In this document: positions 6,795 to 37,990 of the stretch, piece after piece
Layout: each line of letters opens with the position of its first letter
Position numbering within the stretch: the first letter of the stretch is position 1
Source of the DNA: Paraflavitalea sp. CAU 1676
GTDB lineage: Bacteria; Bacteroidota; Bacteroidia; Chitinophagales; Chitinophagaceae
Assembly: GCF_029223285.1 (NCBI RefSeq)
Contig: NZ_JARHUJ010000004.1
Coordinates: 682,001 to 746,000, forward strand
Direction: 5' to 3'
DNA: 64,000 nt
Position numbers and translations under genes: made by a program
Notes under the pieces: generated by a model
What the model saw: only the letters and a program-made list of their open reading frames with translations
The model's database searches: none
What the model was told of the DNA's origin: nothing

Positions 6795-9237
6795 ATTCCG
6801 TCTTCAAACTTTTAACCGGGTTCACCAAGGCTGCCCGGATAGCTTTATAACCCACCGCGATCCACGCGATGAGCATGGAGAAAACGATCGCCAGCAGGAA
6901 GATCCCGGCACCCATCGTTGTGTGGTAGTGGAAATCGGCCAGCCACTCGTTCATGAAATAATAGGCCACCGGACCAGCGATCAGGAAAGCCACCACGATC
7001 AACACCGTAAACTCTTTGGAAAACAACAGAACAATGCTTTGTACCGAGGCGCCCAACACTTTGCGTATACCGATCTCCTTCGTCTTTTGAACCGCCATAA
7101 AGGCAACCAGCCCATACAAACCGAGGCAGGAGATGAAAATGGCCAGCACGGCAAATACTTTGAACAGCTGAGCCGTGGTAGCCTCCGACTTATACATGCC
7201 GTTTATTTTATCATCGAGAAAGGTAAGGTCATACAGGTAGGTTGGGTAGATGTTCCTGAACAGCCGCTCCACCTTTTCCATCGTTGGGCCAAAGCTGGCG
7301 GTGTTGACGCGAACGGCCAACGTAGAATAGTAACCCAAATTCGTCGTGATGGCGATCGGCTTCACCGCCATGTGCAAAGACCGGCTATTGTAATCACGCA
7401 CAACGCCTACTATAGGATACCGGGTTTTTCCATCGAACGAAAGCGTTTTACCGATAGCCGCATCCGCAGCAGCAAGTCCCAGTTGCTTCACAGCGGTTTC
7501 GTTCACTACTACTTCTCTAACGGAATCGCTTTGGAAGGGAAGCCTTCCTGCTGCCAGTTGCAAACCAAAAGTGGAATAAAAGCTGGTATCGCCAAACTGA
7601 ATGGTGATCCTGAACGGCAGTTTCTCCGCATCGTTATTGAAGTAAAGTTCTTCTTCGGCCGACCAATAGGCGACCGGCGAATCCCAGCACAGGCTCGCCT
7701 CTTTTACGCCAGGCAGCGCCTGCATCTGTTGTTTCAGTAAGGGATATTTCACCCGCAGCGAACTGTCGCTGGGCAGATCGATCAGGGCAATGCCCTCTTT
7801 CACCAATCCCATTGACTGGTTGCGGAAAAATTGCATCTGCTTCACCACGACGATCGTGCCAATCACCAGCAACTGTGCGATCACGAACTGAAAAACCACC
7901 AGCGATCTCCGCAGCGAAATGCCGCCTCCGATCTTACTGCTGAGCTTGTTCCTGAAAATGGCCGCCGGTTTAAAGCCCGATACAATGAAGGCCGGGTACA
8001 GGCCCGCCAACAGCGTGATGACCAGTGTAAGGGCAACCAGGAACAAGAGCACGGCTGGATGCAATAACAGGCCAACCGAAAAGGTTTTGTTCAAAAGGTT
8101 GTTGAGAATAGGCAGGCAGGCCACAGCCAGTAGCATACCCAGCAGCAAGGCAAAGAAGGTAATAACCCCTGTTTCCTGCAGGAACTGGCTGATCAGCGAA
8201 CCGCGATCGCTTCCCAATACTTTTCGTACGCCGATCTCTTTCGCTCTAAGTACAGATTGAGCCGTAGATAAGTTGATAAAATTGATGCAGGCCACCAGCA
8301 ACAGGAACACACCGATAAGGCCCAGCGACCACACCTCGCGGCGCGATAAACCATCCTCCCGGAAACTGCCATATGAAGCATTGAAGTGAATATCGTGCAA
8401 GGGTTGAAACCTGAGTTGAGAGCTGGCCTGCCCGGGTTTTGCCACCGGTGCATATTTCTTCATGAAGGCCGGTAATTGAGCGGCCTCGGTGTTAATGGAA
8501 TGGTTGCGGGGCAACAGCACAAAACATTGCATCCGTTCATTGACCCAGTTCCAGTTATCTGCTGCAGTAAACCAGGTGGGATCCATGATCTTTCGAAGCG
8601 TGGCGAGCGACACCCCCAGTTGTACAGGAATATCGGTATTGCCGGGCAGGTCCTTGAAAACGCCCTGGATCAGTACTTTATTCCGGAACGACCAGAACTC
8701 GATCGTACGGCCAATGGCAGCCTGCGCACTGCCGAAGTATTTTTTAGCCAGGGTTTCCGACAGCACACCGGTATTCGGCGCCGTGAGGCCAGTCGCGTTG
8801 CCAGCCACCCATTGGTAATCGAAGATCTCGAACACGCCGGATTCAGCGAAGAACAGTCCCTCGTTTTCCTTGAACCGCTTTTCGTCGGCAAGCCCGTTGC
8901 TGCCGGGTACATAGATCTGTGCCTGGCCCAGCGAAGCAATGAAACCCACTTTCTCAAAAGCCGGAAAGTCGTTGCGCAGCGCATCGACCATGGGGTTGGG
9001 CACGCCGCGATGGTATTCATCGATAGCACCGGTAGTGGCATTTTTCTTTTCGGTAACTACACGGTAGATCCTGTCATTGTTTGCATGATAATTGTCATAT
9101 GTCTCCTCGTACCGGATCACCAGGAAGAGAAGGATGGCGGCAGCGATGCCCACTCCCAGGCCCGCAATATTGATCAGGGCAAAAGACCTGTTCTTCTTCA
9201 ACGACCGGAATGCCGTCTTCAGGGAGATAGTAGTCAT
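6793..9237 (-). CDS. FtsX/MacB-type ABC permease (orphan, 814 aa)
   Basis: Large inner-membrane permease of the MacB/FtsX superfamily. The start at 9237 gives MTTISLKTAFRSLKKNRSF, the usual cytoplasmic lead-in; an upstream in-frame ATG would add an unlikely Cys-rich extension. The order is TM1, a MacB periplasmic core (about 50-265), three TMs, a second lead-in (ISLRRSLVVFQFVIAQ) with a second periplasmic domain, and three TMs. Both FtsX segments contain the coupling motif KEIGVRKVLGS / KEIGIRKVLGA. No ATPase is encoded next to it. Such orphan 800-residue permeases are abundant in Bacteroidota and their substrates are generally unknown. Confidence 0.9.
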   Translation of the reverse strand: MTTISLKTAFRSLKKNRSFALINIAGLGVGIAAAILLFLVIRYEETYDNYHANNDRIYRVVTEKKNATTGAIDEYHRGVPNPMVDALRNDFPAFEKVGFIASLGQAQIYVPGSNGLADEKRFKENEGLFFAESGVFEIFDYQWVAGNATGLTAPNTGVLSETLAKKYFGSAQAAIGRTIEFWSFRNKVLIQGVFKDLPGNTDIPVQLGVSLATLRKIMDPTWFTAADNWNWVNERMQCFVLLPRNHSINTEAAQLPAFMKKYAPVAKPGQASSQLRFQPLHDIHFNASYGSFREDGLSRREVWSLGLIGVFLLLVACINFINLSTAQSVLRAKEIGVRKVLGSDRGSLISQFLQETGVITFFALLLGMLLAVACLPILNNLLNKTFSVGLLLHPAVLLFLVALTLVITLLAGLYPAFIVSGFKPAAIFRNKLSSKIGGGISLRRSLVVFQFVIAQLLVIGTIVVVKQMQFFRNQSMGLVKEGIALIDLPSDSSLRVKYPLLKQQMQALPGVKEASLCWDSPVAYWSAEEELYFNNDAEKLPFRITIQFGDTSFYSTFGLQLAAGRLPFQSDSVREVVVNETAVKQLGLAAADAAIGKTLSFDGKTRYPIVGVVRDYNSRSLHMAVKPIAITTNLGYYSTLAVRVNTASFGPTMEKVERLFRNIYPTYLYDLTFLDDKINGMYKSEATTAQLFKVFAVLAIFISCLGLYGLVAFMAVQKTKEIGIRKVLGASVQSIVLLFSKEFTVLIVVAFLIAGPVAYYFMNEWLADFHYHTTMGAGIFLLAIVFSMLIAWIAVGYKAIRAALVNPVKSLKTE

Positions 9238-9328
9238 AGCAATTTGGGTGGTTATGTGTTTAAACAGATACGGGCACGGAGAAATGTGCATTAGCTGATC
9301 CCAAAAGCAGTCCAAAAATTATCGACTT

Positions 9329-9336
9329 CAAAGCTA
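9329..9336 (-). promoter_or_regulatory. Possible -7 box for the FtsX-type permease
   Basis: TAGCTTTG on the minus strand (9336-9329) matches TAnnTTTG exactly, about 90 bp before the start. The nearest TTG is only 14 bp further upstream, shorter than usual, so this is a weaker call. Confidence 0.35.
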
Positions 9337-9422
9337 ATAAGATAGAAATGCAAGAGAAGAATAGGCTGTTCGATAGTGATACACTGGCCGACCGGATTTG
9401 AACAACCTGCGCCTTAAAATGA

Positions 9423-9462
9423 GGGCACCCCTTCGCGGTCTGCCGACCAGGAAGGGGTGCCC
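9423..9462 (-). terminator. Terminator of the secreted hydrolase gene
   Basis: An 11-bp perfect stem GGGCACCCCTT (9423-9433) / AAGGGGTGCCC (9452-9462) sits 24 bp past the stop codon of the minus-strand hydrolase gene. On that strand it is followed by a short U-rich stretch (TCATTTT). Confidence 0.7.
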
Positions 9463-9485
9463 CGTTTATCGCCTTACTATAGAAT

Positions 9486-10853
9486 CTACTTTTTGATCAT
9501 CACCCGCTGGGTAAATTCAACCGCTGTACCCTGCACCAGTACGAAGTACTGGCCAGCTGCCAGCTGATGGGTGGGTATACGCTGTTGCCAGTAACCTGCT
9601 TCCTTGTTGAATTGATTCACTTGCACCGTGATGCCCTGGCTGTTCAACAGCTTAACGGTGATCCTGTCCTTGTTGGGATTGTTGAAGCCGATCGTGATCG
9701 CATCGGTTGCCGGGTTGGGAAACAATACCAGCTTGCCTGTCTGCACATCGATGGTAGCCTTCAGCAAGGAGAACAAGGTAGTTTTACCGTTGACGTCCGT
9801 TTGGCTGAGCCTGTAATAATTATTGCCGATTGCCGGATGTTCGTCTTTGAAAGCATAGTTGCTGCCATTGGCTTCGTTCGTCGAAGCAACCTGGCCTATC
9901 TTCTGGAAATTGACCCCGTCTTCCGAACGTTCGATGCTGAAGAACTGGTTGTCCTGCTCCAGGGTCGTAGACCAAATGATGCTCACCCCTTCTTTGCCCG
10001 AGGAAGCGATCTTATAATTGGAAAGCGCTACCGGCAGGGCAGCTTCGGCCCGGCTGTACTGCAGCGCCCATTCGTACACATTCCTGCCATTCTCCTTAAA
10101 GGAAGCGTCGTAGGTGGCCGTCCAGGCATCATGGTCGGCCGATGGGAAGATCGTCTTTTTGGCCCTTGGGGTAGGTGGGTGTAAGCCATCGTTGATCAGC
10201 GTAATGTACAGGTTGGTGGCAGTGACCCGCACAGTGAGGTCGCCGTCGTTGTGCGTAGCCCATACCGGCAGGTTGGCTTCGCCGATATTGTCAGCAAGCC
10301 AGGAATAGGCTTGCGAATAACCGCATACAGGAATAATACCGGCCAGCTTTTTGGCTGCCGCAAGGCTGCTGCCCGCATATTCCCATACGGCGCCGCCACC
10401 CAGGCTCATGCCGGTAAGGTAAATACGGTCGGTATCTACCCGGTAATTATTCTTTACATAAGTGAGGATCGATTCTACTTCTGAAGGAACCAGTCTTTGC
10501 TTGTATTGGGGTGAGATAACTATGAAACTATAAGACCGCCCGCCGGAAGTAACTGTCGTGGGGAACTTGCCTTCCTGGATATTTTTGGGAATGGCATCAC
10601 CCAGTAACTTCTGCAGATCATTTTCACTGCCATCGCCACGGTCGCCATCACCATGGAGGTAAACGATCACGGGATATTTTTGGGTACCACTGGGGTTGTA
10701 GCCCTGGGGCAGGTACTCCCACAAACCACCACAATTGTTGTTGATGAAAACTGTCTTTTTCCGGTGTACGGACGCTTGAGCAAAACCTCGCTGATTCAAT
10801 AACAGGCATACCAATAACAGGCATGCTGTACCGAAAGTGTACAAATGCTTCAT
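9486..10853 (-). CDS. Secreted alpha/beta hydrolase (feruloyl-esterase/PHB-depolymerase-like) with T9SS sorting domain
   Basis: Exported esterase-like enzyme. 455 residues: signal peptide to about residue 25 (GFAQ-AS), an alpha/beta-hydrolase domain (about 45-265) and a C-terminal T9SS type A sorting domain (about 375-455, with LFPNPATDAITI and the terminal ..QRVMIKK). The catalytic triad is visible: nucleophile Ser150 in GMSLGGG, Asp203 or Asp205 in HNDGD, and His241 in SADHDAW. The oxyanion segment is VIVYLHGDGDRG. This architecture matches polysaccharide-associated acyl esterases or PHB-depolymerase-like proteins; the substrate is not determined. A linker domain between 270 and 370 resembles a fibronectin/Por-linked beta sandwich. 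It is a single-gene unit with its own terminator. Confidence 0.85.
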   Translation of the reverse strand: MKHLYTFGTACLLLVCLLLNQRGFAQASVHRKKTVFINNNCGGLWEYLPQGYNPSGTQKYPVIVYLHGDGDRGDGSENDLQKLLGDAIPKNIQEGKFPTTVTSGGRSYSFIVISPQYKQRLVPSEVESILTYVKNNYRVDTDRIYLTGMSLGGGAVWEYAGSSLAAAKKLAGIIPVCGYSQAYSWLADNIGEANLPVWATHNDGDLTVRVTATNLYITLINDGLHPPTPRAKKTIFPSADHDAWTATYDASFKENGRNVYEWALQYSRAEAALPVALSNYKIASSGKEGVSIIWSTTLEQDNQFFSIERSEDGVNFQKIGQVASTNEANGSNYAFKDEHPAIGNNYYRLSQTDVNGKTTLFSLLKATIDVQTGKLVLFPNPATDAITIGFNNPNKDRITVKLLNSQGITVQVNQFNKEAGYWQQRIPTHQLAAGQYFVLVQGTAVEFTQRVMIKK

Positions 10854-30595: not shown

Positions 30596-31879
30596 TTATT
30601 GTTTTTCAAATTCCACCCGGCGGTTATTGGCTTTGGCAGCCGGTGTGGTGGCCTTATCAACCGGCGCGCTTTCACCCTTGCCATCGGTCTCCATGCGGTC
30701 GGCATCGATTCCAAACTCTGTCGTTAAAGCCGCCTTCACGGCTGCTGCTCTTTGTTTAGAAAGGTTGAGGTTGTACGCCGCTTCTCCATCGCTATCGGTA
30801 TGGCCCGTGATCTTTACTTTCAGCGACGCATTTTCTTTCAGGGTGGCAGCAATTTCTTTCAACACGCCATATGATTCAGGTTTGATGCGATCGCTGTTCA
30901 CGTCGAACAGGATACCCGTGGTCACAAACTTTCCTTCCGTGAGTAATTTGTTGCGCAGGTCGGGCGCACCGGTGGCGAGGCGCAGGTTGGTGATGAAATA
31001 CTGGTCGGGCTCGGTACGGGCGGTGGTGAGGCCAAACACGAGTGCATTGTAAGCGGGTGCATTGAGCGCCCGAGCCACATCCACCACTTTCTCTTCATTG
31101 AAGTAAATGCGAATCCTCGTCTTCTGCCGCCATATGGCCACCTTCATGAAATTCTTCGTTTTGGCATGGAACTGGGTGGTGGCCTGTTGCTGCTGTAAAG
31201 AGTAGTCTCCGTTCAGCGATGCTTCATAACCCATACGGCCAGTTTGTCCGTCGGTCGACATAGGCAGTATCCAGGTATTGAAACCCGTGCGTCCGCCCAA
31301 ACCCTGCATATAACGGGTATAATGATCCGGCTTTTGCAAAGAAGCGATAGCGAATGACAATGGCGACGACTGGTTGCGGAATCCCGGATTACAGCCTACC
31401 TCAAACTCGAGCGTAAAGTTATCGGGCAAAGCAGAGATGAATTCGGGCATGTACACACCGCTTTTATTGATCGCCAGCCATTGGCCGCTATGGCCTTCGA
31501 GGGTAACGATCTCGCCGCCCGCATTCGTATTCCATTTGGCGGGGAAGTCGCCGCGGGCATCCTGCGAAAAATCTTCGAAGGCGATCACTTTATCACCGGG
31601 CACAAAGTCGTAGGCGCTGTATACCTTGAGACTGCCGGCAGCTGCTGGCGCCGCAGCTACTGCACCCGTTTTTTCCGGGGTACCTGCTGCCGGTGAGGTA
31701 GTCGTCTTTTTGCCATGCTTGCCATCCAGCACGCTGTCCATGGCTTTGCCCGATTCTTTCACCACTTTATTCTCCGCCTTGTCTTTGGCGAGGTTCTTCA
31801 GCTTATTCAACAATTGTGCCTCCGCGCTACTGGCTGTCAGCACGGCAATGGCAATAATCAGATGCTTCATAACAAACAT
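30596..31879 (-). CDS. OmpA-family peptidoglycan-binding outer-envelope protein
   Basis: A 427-residue exported protein (signal near MKHLIIAIAVLTASSAEAQ; ATGs at 31879 and 31870 are both possible). After a basic, helical N-terminus (LLNKLKNLAKDKAENK) and an Ala/Pro/Thr linker comes a concanavalin-like or 3-keto-disaccharide-hydrolase-like beta-sandwich (about 88-300, AFEDFSQDARGDFPAKWNT.. YITNLRLA). The C-terminal OmpA domain (about 310-427) carries TGHTDSDGEAAYNLNLSKQRA and NNRRVEF, with the Asp and Arg that bind meso-diaminopimelate. It likely ties the outer membrane to peptidoglycan while displaying a sugar-binding-like domain. Confidence 0.9.
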   Translation of the reverse strand: MFVMKHLIIAIAVLTASSAEAQLLNKLKNLAKDKAENKVVKESGKAMDSVLDGKHGKKTTTSPAAGTPEKTGAVAAAPAAAGSLKVYSAYDFVPGDKVIAFEDFSQDARGDFPAKWNTNAGGEIVTLEGHSGQWLAINKSGVYMPEFISALPDNFTLEFEVGCNPGFRNQSSPLSFAIASLQKPDHYTRYMQGLGGRTGFNTWILPMSTDGQTGRMGYEASLNGDYSLQQQQATTQFHAKTKNFMKVAIWRQKTRIRIYFNEEKVVDVARALNAPAYNALVFGLTTARTEPDQYFITNLRLATGAPDLRNKLLTEGKFVTTGILFDVNSDRIKPESYGVLKEIAATLKENASLKVKITGHTDSDGEAAYNLNLSKQRAAAVKAALTTEFGIDADRMETDGKGESAPVDKATTPAAKANNRRVEFEKQ

Positions 31880-31912: not shown

Positions 31913-31920
31913 CAAATGTA
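31913..31920 (-). promoter_or_regulatory. -7 box for the OmpA gene
   Basis: TACATTTG on the minus strand (31920-31913) is an exact TAnnTTTG match 33 bp before the start codon. No TTG is seen at the -33 distance. Confidence 0.45.
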
Positions 31921-32033
31921 ATGGTGTCGCGAAGCCTGGCGCAGGAGAAAGCTACCAGTGTACTTATACGCAGACGAAGACAGGTAAACTTGATTGGCAG
32001 AGCTATGTGGTATCCTGTCGGATAATAGGGCTG

Positions 32034-32121
32034 TTCGTCGTACCCGGGGGCATTGTGCAGGCCAATGCGGTCACTCATCGGGCTATCGGCTGTTTCGTCG
32101 GATAGGCCCGGCCTCCACTGG
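32034..32121 (+). promoter_or_regulatory. Putative response-regulator binding region upstream of the LytS/LytTR operon
   Basis: TTCGTCG occurs at 32034-32040 and again exactly 60 bp later at 32094-32100. The second copy is followed by CCCGG and CTCCACTGG (32113-32121), ending 22 bp before the histidine kinase start. The same ordered blocks TTTCGTCG-CCCGG-CTCCACTGG recur upstream of the small exported gene at 34187. This suggests a shared operator or promoter element, possibly for the encoded LytTR regulator. Confidence 0.5.
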
Positions 32122-32143
32122 CATGTTATACTAATTTTAACAC

Positions 32144-33226
32144 ATGAGCCGGATTGCCTGGAATCACCTTCTAACCAAAAGGGTATTGTGGACCATTACT
32201 GTCAAGGAGTTATTGCTTTGGCTGTTGTTCAATATCGTGTACGGGTTACTTTTTTACCTCGCCCTGCACGCTATTAGCGGCGGGCAAAAGATCCATGGCA
32301 TCTATGTATGGTTATTGCTCGATGTATTTATCGAGATCTTCATCCAGGGTTTGCTCACGATTCCTTTGTGGTGGCTGTTTTTCCGCCGCCTTAGCGATAA
32401 ACCTATACCCGTCATCCTGGTTACGCATGTGGTGCTGGTAAGTGCTTTTTTGTACCTGCGTGGTGTAAGCGAAGGAGTAGTGAGTAAACTAACCTGTAAG
32501 GAGTCGGGCGCGTTTTTCTACTGGCATGCCTACTACCTGCCCATGCTGTTTTACGTGATCCAGTTCTCCATCTTCCATGCCTATAATTTCTGGCTCAAAA
32601 GCCAGCGCCAGGTAGAGAAAGAAAAAGAGTTGATGTCGCTGGCCTACCAAAGTGAAGTGAACGCACTCAAAGCACAGATACAACCTCATTTCCTCTTCAA
32701 TACCCTCAACTCCATCAGCGCTACCGTGCCGCCCGAAATGGAAGCTACCCGCGTATTGATCGCCCGGCTGGCCGATACCTTCCGCTATGCATTGAAAAGC
32801 ACACAAAAACACCAGGTAACACTGGGGGAGGAGCTGGATTTCATCCGCACCTGGATCGAACTGGAGATGCACCGCTTCAAATCGAGGCTTAAAGTTGAAT
32901 ATCATACCGATGAGTCGGTGCTGCAGTTGCAGATCCCGCCCATGTTGCTGCAACCCCTCGTGGAGAATGCCGTAAAACATGGGATCGGCGGCAGCATTAC
33001 CGGCGGCACCATCAAAATATCCTGCATCCGGGAAGGTCGCCATGCCAAGATCATTATCAGCGATACCGGGGCCGGTTTCAAGGGCGATCTGCAGCAACTG
33101 GAGCGCACAGAGGGCATCGGATTAAAGAATACCCGACTGCGCCTGCTGCGTTTGTACAACGAAGAGCTGTTTGTGGAACCTAATGTACCTTCCGGACTAA
33201 CATCGTATTTTTACATTCCTTTATAA
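32144..33226 (+). CDS. LytS/YehU-type membrane sensor histidine kinase
   Basis: A 360-residue protein: four TM helices in the first 150 residues (about 20-45, 53-80, 88-104, 128-150), a short coiled coil (QRQVEKEKELMSLAYQSEVNALKAQ), then the HisKA-LytS phosphoacceptor motif QIQPHFLFNTLNSIS with His182. The ATPase domain has N-box LLQPLVENAVKHGI and G-box DTGAGF and EGIGLKN. It has no extracytoplasmic sensor domain, so the signal is probably sensed in the membrane. It is encoded 8 bp before its cognate LytTR regulator. Confidence 0.95.
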   Translation: MSRIAWNHLLTKRVLWTITVKELLLWLLFNIVYGLLFYLALHAISGGQKIHGIYVWLLLDVFIEIFIQGLLTIPLWWLFFRRLSDKPIPVILVTHVVLVSAFLYLRGVSEGVVSKLTCKESGAFFYWHAYYLPMLFYVIQFSIFHAYNFWLKSQRQVEKEKELMSLAYQSEVNALKAQIQPHFLFNTLNSISATVPPEMEATRVLIARLADTFRYALKSTQKHQVTLGEELDFIRTWIELEMHRFKSRLKVEYHTDESVLQLQIPPMLLQPLVENAVKHGIGGSITGGTIKISCIREGRHAKIIISDTGAGFKGDLQQLERTEGIGLKNTRLRLLRLYNEELFVEPNVPSGLTSYFYIPL

Positions 33227-33234
33227 ACCGCGCA

Positions 33235-33975
33235 ATGGCCAAGAAAGTACTTATCATAGACGATGAAGATGCAGCCCGCCTGGTGATACGCCAGTACCTG
33301 GGGGCTTTTGAAGAGTTGCAGATCGTTGGCGAATGCAGCCATGGGCAAGAGGCCGTAACGGCCATCAACCGGCTCGAGCCCGACCTGGTTTTCCTGGATG
33401 TGCAGATGCCCGGGCTCAGCGGCTTTCAGGTGATCCAGCAAATAGTACACGTGCCACAGATCATCTTTACTACTGCCTACGACCAATATGCGCTCAAGGC
33501 GTTTGATTCCAATGCCATCGATTACCTGCTCAAGCCCTATACCCTCGAACGGTTCAAACAGGCAGTTTCAAAAGTATTGTTGCGGTCCGGCAATCCTTCC
33601 ATCGATGCCGTAAAGAACCTGGCTGATCAGGCCGGCGGTAGCGCCACTACCTACTCCGAAAGGATACTGGTGGAGAGCGGCAATAAAATGACCAATATTC
33701 AAACTGCAGAGATCATCTACCTCGAGGCCGAGCGCGACTATACGCGGCTGCATACCGAAAAAAAGAATTACCTCAGCAACTACGGCATTGGCGTTATCGT
33801 GCAACGGCTCGATCCCCGGCATTTTATCCGCATTCACCGGTCGTACATCGTCAACATCAACCATATTAAAGAAGTATACCGCGAAGACAACGGCATCCTC
33901 GTCATCACCTCCAACAATGTATCGCTCAAAGTAAGCCGCAGCTATACCGACGACCTCCGCCGACTGATGTATTGA
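33235..33975 (+). CDS. LytTR-family response regulator
   Basis: A 246-residue protein. The receiver domain is intact: acidic pair Asp9/Asp10, phosphoacceptor Asp55 (LVFLDVQMPG), Thr80 and Lys100 (DYLLKPY). It is joined to a LytTR DNA-binding domain (about 140-245: ILVESGNKMTNIQTAEIIYLEAERDYTRLHT ... FIRIHRSYIVNINHI). It is cognate to the kinase 8 bp upstream. A candidate binding motif occurs both before the operon and just after it. Confidence 0.95.
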   Translation: MAKKVLIIDDEDAARLVIRQYLGAFEELQIVGECSHGQEAVTAINRLEPDLVFLDVQMPGLSGFQVIQQIVHVPQIIFTTAYDQYALKAFDSNAIDYLLKPYTLERFKQAVSKVLLRSGNPSIDAVKNLADQAGGSATTYSERILVESGNKMTNIQTAEIIYLEAERDYTRLHTEKKNYLSNYGIGVIVQRLDPRHFIRIHRSYIVNINHIKEVYREDNGILVITSNNVSLKVSRSYTDDLRRLMY

Positions 33976-33980
33976 TATCC

Positions 33981-34045
33981 CGACGAATGACTTAATCGAA
34001 CGATGAAATGTTATTGCTCATTTCGTCGACCCGGTTCTCCACTGG
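33981..34045 (+). promoter_or_regulatory. Second copy of the TTTCGTCG-CCCGG-CTCCACTGG element
   Basis: TTTCGTCG (34021-34028), ACCCGG (34029-34034) and CTCCACTGG (34037-34045) appear in the same order and orientation as upstream of the kinase gene. An inverted CGACGAA is at 33981-33987. The element lies between the response regulator stop and the small exported gene, about 140 bp before its start. Confidence 0.5.
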
Positions 34046-34186
34046 TAGTTTATGGCTTTTATCCCGTCAATGTCCATCCTACATTTGTTTTCGCAACCCG
34101 GCCGGACGAAAAAATGACAGAGGGTGGTAATTTTTTGCTGACTGGCGGGGTTGCTTTTCAAGCATCTCTTTTCAAAGAATACAGCC

Positions 34187-34502: not shown

Positions 34503-34543
34503 AAACGGACCACCGCCGGTTTGGGCGCATGGCCCGTTTTTTT
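34503..34543 (+). terminator. Terminator after the small exported gene
   Basis: AAACGG (34503-34508) / CCGTTT (34534-34539), or alternatively the internal GGGC-GCATG-GCCC stem, followed by seven T. The stem is modest but the T tract is strong. Confidence 0.55.
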
Positions 34544-37252: not shown

Positions 37253-37990
37253 ATGAAGGTATTAGTTGTGGAAGGAGATAAGCGCGTTGTAAGAATTCTG
37301 GAACGTGCTTTGAAGAGAATCGATCACTCCATCCGTATCATTGGCACAATTCCTGCCATTTTCTCATCGGCCCATTGGCTGAAGCAACATGGAATTCCCG
37401 ACATTATTTTAATGAGTGAGGATGCTGTGAAAGAGCACCAGATCATTGACCTCTCAAACGGCAAGGTCAATGCAACGGTTATTTTCACAGTTCAGTCGGA
37501 TCAATTCACATTCTATGCATTCCGCCTGGCTCATCTCGAACACCTGCTGCCCGCCGCATTCATGGAACGTTTCCAGGACGAAATGGACCAGGATGTAGTA
37601 ACGGCTCCCGTACAGGTTATGGCACCGGCCACGAAGGTCATTCAAACAACCTGGCGAACCCGTTTCCTGGTAAAGCAGGGACAGAAATTTGCTTCGGTGG
37701 AGACGGCGACCATCGCTTACTTCTTTTCAGAAGGCCGCTTCATTTTCTTCAAAACGATCGACGGGCAGAAATACCTGGTCGAGTACACGCTGGAGGAATT
37801 GGAGTCCATGCTCGATCCGCAGCAGTTCTTCCGCATCAACCGTTCACTGCTGGTTTCCTTTAAAAGTGTAGATCAGATCCATCCTTATTTTGGCAATCGT
37901 TTAAAGCTCTTTCTCGAGCCCGCTATGGAGAAGGATATTCTGGTTAGCAGGGAAAAAGTGAATGAGTTCAAAAAGTGGCTGGGGCAGTAG
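37253..37990 (+). CDS. LytTR regulator with degenerate (pseudo-)receiver domain
   Basis: 245 residues from ATG 37253; the open frame further upstream contains the promoter. The N-terminal half aligns with a response-regulator receiver, but key residues are lost. Where the intact regulator at 33235 has Asp55 (PDLVFLD) this protein has Ser55 (PDIILMS); Lys100 (DYLLK) is Pro100 (EHLLP); the acidic pair is reduced to VVEGD. The C-terminal LytTR domain (about 140-245) is well preserved: FLVKQGQKFASVETATIAYF and FFRINRSLLVSF. It thus probably binds DNA without phosphorylation control. No kinase gene is adjacent. Confidence 0.9.
   Translation: MKVLVVEGDKRVVRILERALKRIDHSIRIIGTIPAIFSSAHWLKQHGIPDIILMSEDAVKEHQIIDLSNGKVNATVIFTVQSDQFTFYAFRLAHLEHLLPAAFMERFQDEMDQDVVTAPVQVMAPATKVIQTTWRTRFLVKQGQKFASVETATIAYFFSEGRFIFFKTIDGQKYLVEYTLEELESMLDPQQFFRINRSLLVSFKSVDQIHPYFGNRLKLFLEPAMEKDILVSREKVNEFKKWLGQ

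Follow-up and report, generated by a model that had tools for sequence, protein, structure and literature searches.

The stretch of Paraflavitalea DNA examined here (the window, 64,000 nucleotides long) carries a LytTR two-component system that, with a probability of roughly two in three, controls the operon that encodes it, together with surface proteins and a cognate small RNA. Four observations carry this reading: a distinctive promoter layout, the conservation of that layout, its co-occurrence with the two-component system, and a conserved hairpin. In the mechanism that we propose, the membrane kinase would phosphorylate the LytTR regulator, which would then bind a pair of half-sites, TTCRTCG and, 20 bp on, YTGGTAG or TTCGTCG. 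A TAnnTTTR -7 box follows 38 bp from the start of the proximal half-site, and bound regulator would activate transcription at this promoter. The local targets would be the kinase-regulator operon itself (autoregulation), the divergent gene for an OmpA-family protein, and a hairpin RNA of ~65 nt encoded directly 3' of the regulator gene; elsewhere, they would include a NIDO/CARDB surface-protein operon and the gene of a stand-alone LytTR protein. A small, fast-evolving exported ORF, present in two species, would be expressed by read-through past the terminator of the RNA. We infer that the adjacent regulator does the binding, that it activates rather than represses, and that the RNA is transcribed and functional. 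The features of the locus are collected in Table 1.

Table 1. Features of the locus, in coordinates of the window; promoters and the RNA are predictions
Feature	Position	Strand	Details
OmpA-family exported protein gene, 427 aa, divergent from kinase	30596..31879	-	PF00691 2.7e-25
OmpA-gene promoter	31913..31978	-	TTCGTCT 31978-31972, CTGGTAG 31958-31952, -7 box TACATTTG 31920-31913
Additional TTCGTCG half-site	32034..32040	+	40 bp before CTCATCG; same position in G001
Kinase-operon promoter	32074..32139	+	CTCATCG 32074-32080, TTCGTCG 32094-32100, -7 box TAATTTTA 32132-32139
Membrane histidine kinase, 360 aa	32144..33226	+	PF06580 2.6e-23, HATPase_c
LytTR response regulator, 246 aa	33235..33975	+	PF00072, PF04397
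Tandem pair TTCATCG-20 bp-TTCGTCG directly 3' of regulator stop codon	33981..34007	-	20-bp pair in 4/4 species
Predicted RNA promoter	34022..34087	+	TTCGTCG 34022-34028, CTGGTAG 34042-34048, -7 box TACATTTG 34080-34087
Predicted hairpin RNA	34092..34158	+	stem 34093-34154, loop 34116-34129 (GACAGAGGGUGGUA), U-rich tail
Accessory small exported ORF, 98 aa	34187..34483	+	in 2/4 species
Terminator-like hairpin 3' of small ORF	34522..34543	+	consensus scan

The kinase-regulator pair and a shared promoter layout

Five genomes of the Paraflavitalea group (Chitinophagaceae), a genus of the soil, were compared (G000, that of the window, and G001 to G004). Orthologous kinase-regulator pairs lie in conserved neighbourhoods in G001, G002 and G003, orthologs of the kinase being 72-88% and those of the regulator 91-94% identical; G004 has no ortholog of the pair. 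The regulator combines a receiver domain (PF00072, 5.6e-23) with a C-terminal LytTR domain (PF04397, 1.5e-24), as a LytTR response regulator should. The pairing of a PF06580 kinase with such a regulator recalls BtsSR and LytSR, and the best model for the regulator is that of BtsR. However, it falls short of that NCBIfam equivalog, at 167.9 bits against a cut-off of 246. Nor is the kinase a LytS in the strict sense (a transmembrane sensor plus a GAF-type domain): Pfam gives PF06580 and HATPase only, and no match to the LytS sensor domain that would be found in LytSR. The OmpA-family gene is syntenic in G001 and G003 and missing from the G002 locus.

The common layout consists of a TTC(A/G)TCG half-site, 20 bp, a YTGGTAG or TTCGTCG half-site, 38 bp, and a predicted Bacteroidota -7 box, TAnnTTTR. 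It stands before the kinase-regulator operon and 3' of the regulator gene in all four species with the pair, and before the OmpA-family gene in all three that keep that gene at the locus. A strict composite pattern allowing 0 mismatches retrieves exactly the OmpA-gene and post-regulator promoters in G000, G001 and G003, the former before the same gene each time. In G002, whose locus has no OmpA gene, only the post-regulator promoter is recovered, with 2 mismatches, and G004 yields neither an RNA promoter nor any other composite-site match. The kinase-operon promoter is conserved in the four species, with each spacing one base longer in G003; TTTCGTCGGATA is kept upstream of the kinase in all of them. 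Directly 3' of the regulator, the array CGACGAA-20 bp-CGAYGAA and the element (Y)TGGTAGTTT are likewise found in 4/4 species, and an inverted TTCGTCG in three, being degenerate in G002. The predicted transcription start of the kinase coincides with its ATG in four species (32132-32144 in the window), which suggests that its mRNA is leaderless.

Known LytTR sites are direct repeats of 9-10 bp with spacers of 11-12 bp (PMC2766830). The predicted sites described here have the period expected of them (20-21 bp in four species, against about 20-21 bp), and they resemble the tandem sites of SilA, AgrA and VirR (PMC2766830) in that a pair of direct repeats with a period of about 20-21 bp lies upstream of a promoter. 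They differ from those sites in their half-sites (TTCRTCG / YTGGTAG) and in the -7 box, a putative one of the Bacteroidota type. Given that the Bacteroidota consensus TAnnTTTG occupies -12 to -5 (PMC9723704), the half-sites would start near -70 and -50. The -7 boxes, TACATTTG for the RNA and the OmpA gene and TAATTTTA for the kinase, stand at a fixed distance from them, the start sites being predicted only. The 20-bp period, the fixed distance to the -7 box, the conservation in four species and the absence from G004, which has no pair, all indicate that these repeats behave like tandem LytTR sites.

An earlier, sequence-only reading of this DNA had noticed that TTTCGTCG, CCCGG and CTCCACTGG occur in the same order at 32093-32121 and at 34021-34045. 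They do, with 0 expected in shuffled sequence; indeed, TTTCGTCG-N(1-25)-CTCCACTGG has only these two occurrences in the 8.8-Mb genome and none in 40 relatives. The same reading was right about an extra TTCGTCG exactly 60 bp earlier (at 32034, before 32094) and about an inverted CGACGAA near the second copy (at 33981), and its proposed search upstream of orthologous genes in relatives finds the sites conserved at both the kinase and the post-regulator promoters in 4/4 species. As a unit, the motif survives in part: TTTCGTCG is kept in three orthologous loci, but CCCGG and the first copy of CTCCACTGG, on the kinase side, are unconserved there, and we reject these two as functional parts. Further, the register differs between the copies, with TTTCGTCG serving as proximal half-site before the kinase and as distal half-site at 34022. 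That reading had overlooked two features, the predicted hairpin RNA and the promoter of the same layout before the divergent OmpA-family gene.

Sites elsewhere and the identity of the binding protein

Because the locus itself supplied the composite pattern, only the matches at the NIDO operon and at a LytTR gene are independent of it. A broader pattern, run with one mismatch, also finds the kinase promoter and, in G000, G001 and G003, the promoter of the NIDO/CARDB operon, compared with one control match in the five genomes. This three-gene operon (L182:4284-15970, L194, L195) encodes a NIDO/CARDB protein of ~2000 aa, a protein of ~350 aa and a MopE-repeat/M23 protein of 1534 aa; its promoter is orthologous in the three species and was not used in designing the pattern. 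The divergent OmpA-family gene is, from its promoter, also a predicted member of the regulon.

With two mismatches allowed, 70 matches stand against 48 in the control, and most are background. Among them, however, is the promoter of a gene for a 183-aa stand-alone LytTR protein, an orthologous set in four species (L118-L121) in which the 20/38 spacing is kept to a box of the TAnnTTGY type (PMC9723704). In G000 this promoter reads CGATGAAATG..CATTCATCG plus TTGGTAG, arranged as in the RNA promoter. The motif work consisted of pattern scans and selected genome regions. By itself, TTCRTCG-N(13-14)-TTCRTCG is neither rarer nor commoner genome-wide than its reversed control. We also considered, and rejected, the idea that LytTR genes carry the box in general, since the half-site occurs at about chance frequency around the other LytTR loci of the genome (33.7 kb of non-coding sequence hold 17 half-sites, two of them with a partner, where base frequencies predict about 16).

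As to which LytTR protein would occupy these sites, the main uncertainty comes from the stand-alone gene, which carries the same box. The boxes could be real and yet serve chiefly a LytTR protein other than the adjacent regulator, for instance the 183-aa stand-alone protein or the orphan encoded at 37253. The genome has 59 LytTR-domain matches, and the promoter of the 183-aa gene has the same inverted-plus-direct boxes in four species; but the boxes cluster at the locus of the two-component system and are absent from G004, the genus genome devoid of the pair. We regard this alternative as rather improbable, although it fares best among those considered. The orphan itself, at 37253-37990 (+) and 3.3 kb downstream, is syntenic in four species. 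Pfam gives no recognisable receiver-domain match in it, and no TTCRTCG tandem box lies within 200 bp upstream of its gene.

A conserved hairpin behind the regulator gene

Between the second motif copy and the small ORF lies a conserved block, GCAACC..GGCC..AAAAAATGACAGAGGGTGGTAATTTTTT..GGCGGGGTTGC-TTTT. It would specify a ~65-nt element that forms the same single hairpin in four species (-27.1 kcal/mol, z -2.4 for the copy in the window), and the stem base is where the RNA is predicted to start. The loop CAGAGGGUGGU, its most conserved part, is invariant in all four; changes in the stem are one-sided and only pairing-preserving. A covariance model scores 85-100 bits in these four genomes and at most 35 bits elsewhere among 396 genomes of the family. 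The matches of 24-35 bits outside the genus, judged by their sequence, do not have the GAGGGTGG loop, and we take them as chance. A scan of named genomes for the exact core returned two genus members and four unrelated records. No Rfam 15 family matches the element, two unrelated matches falling below their gathering scores, and the RNA is absent beside regulator orthologs of other genera (58-64% identity). At one such locus in another genus (L033), TTCATCG-20 bp-TTCATCG comes next after a regulator of 58% identity and precedes an exported-looking ORF that starts MIKKDFLYIGFILLLIAISIGLSC. Most likely, the element encodes a non-coding hairpin RNA, the probable cognate regulatory RNA of the LytTR system, with the exposed loop as its likely contact site.

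The sequence-only reading had instead suggested that the kinase, the regulator and the small exported protein form a compact three-gene sensing unit, with the regulator governing its own operon and the small gene. The 98-aa ORF does have the signal-like N-terminus, the two Cys and the HHHH that were ascribed to it, and no Pfam or NCBIfam family. LytTR-like tandem sites do stand at both promoters, but a conserved target the small protein is not. The three-gene unit itself fails in the relatives: the ORF is absent in G001 and G002, its homolog in G003 is 33% identical, chiefly in the signal peptide, and the Cys and His residues differ between G000 and G003. Further, the terminator-like hairpin sits between promoter and ORF and, with the promoter, persists in G001 and G002, where no same-strand gene follows it and the downstream genes are convergent. 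One could still hold that the protein is the functional output of such a unit and the hairpin only a leader or attenuator of its gene, as in G000 and G003 the ORF begins about 30 nt past the hairpin with no further -7 box seen in the gap, and the first 30 codons of the ORF have a third-position bias. That bias indicates that the ORF may be translated; we nonetheless consider this account of the locus unlikely. The small ORF lies behind the terminator of the RNA and is not the conserved output. In G003 (L020, reverse complement 8690-10114), a 474-aa transporter-like ORF stands between the small ORF and a cytochrome c gene; it is missing from the other three loci.

Another possibility is that the hairpin merely terminates the kinase-regulator operon and that the sequence upstream of it is no separate promoter. 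A GC-rich stem and a U-rich tail placed 3' of the operon's last gene would suit a terminator, but the 11-nt loop, which a terminator does not need, is the part conserved best, and the 20/38 spacing upstream equals that of the OmpA promoter in three species; we give this explanation little credence. That the block encodes a short peptide (MTEGGNFLLTGGVAF...) is very improbable: an ATG-led frame does run through the loop in G000, G001 and G003, its stop overlapping the start codon of the small ORF in G000 and G003, but the start codon is lost in G002 (ATA), the frame is shifted in G001, and the few substitutions are mostly non-synonymous while the hairpin is kept.

For the favored assignment as a regulatory RNA, we searched for targets. 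Exact complements of the loop occur near control numbers, mostly within genes, and reveal no conserved 5'-UTR target; duplex energies of the RNA with the 5' regions of the co-regulated genes are no better than those of shuffles. In G000 and G003 the best OmpA duplex falls directly upstream of the start codon; it is not significant. Only tentatively do we raise the idea that the main output of the system is this dedicated ~65-nt RNA with its invariant G-rich loop, which might act post-transcriptionally on surface-protein mRNAs (possibly that of the OmpA protein) while the regulator activates the same genes, forming a feed-forward loop.

Relation to known systems

One of the nearest precedents is FasBCA-FasX of Streptococcus pyogenes (PMC12675982, PMC7602753), in which the gene of a LytTR/ComE-like regulator lies beside the small RNA that it controls and a binding site lies upstream of the RNA promoter; here that site is predicted. 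The likeness to FasX is one of location and site only, the RNA element being directly 3' of the regulator gene with a predicted site upstream. The systems differ in phylum, in the number of kinases (two there, one here) and in the RNA (205 nt for FasX, a single hairpin of ~65 nt here); further, the operon itself and surface genes also carry the site in our case. AgrCA-RNAIII of Staphylococcus aureus and VirSR-VR-RNA of Clostridium perfringens likewise unite a LytTR two-component system with a regulatory RNA, and Agr also controls its own operon from a neighbouring promoter (PMC7602753). However, their RNAs are far longer (514 nt for RNAIII and 386 nt for VR-RNA), and no autoinducer peptide gene was identified at the present locus. 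By analogy, the system most likely works in the mode of FasBCA-FasX or Agr-RNAIII, in Bacteroidota; we claim no homology of the RNA to FasX or RNAIII.

Our literature searches found no described LytTR binding site for this group. The locus supplies a testable box, a spacing rule and a target list for LytTR, along with a candidate cognate RNA comparable to those described in Streptococcus, Staphylococcus and Clostridium. A further lesson is that an RNA gene can pass for the leader of a small-protein gene when one genome alone is read.
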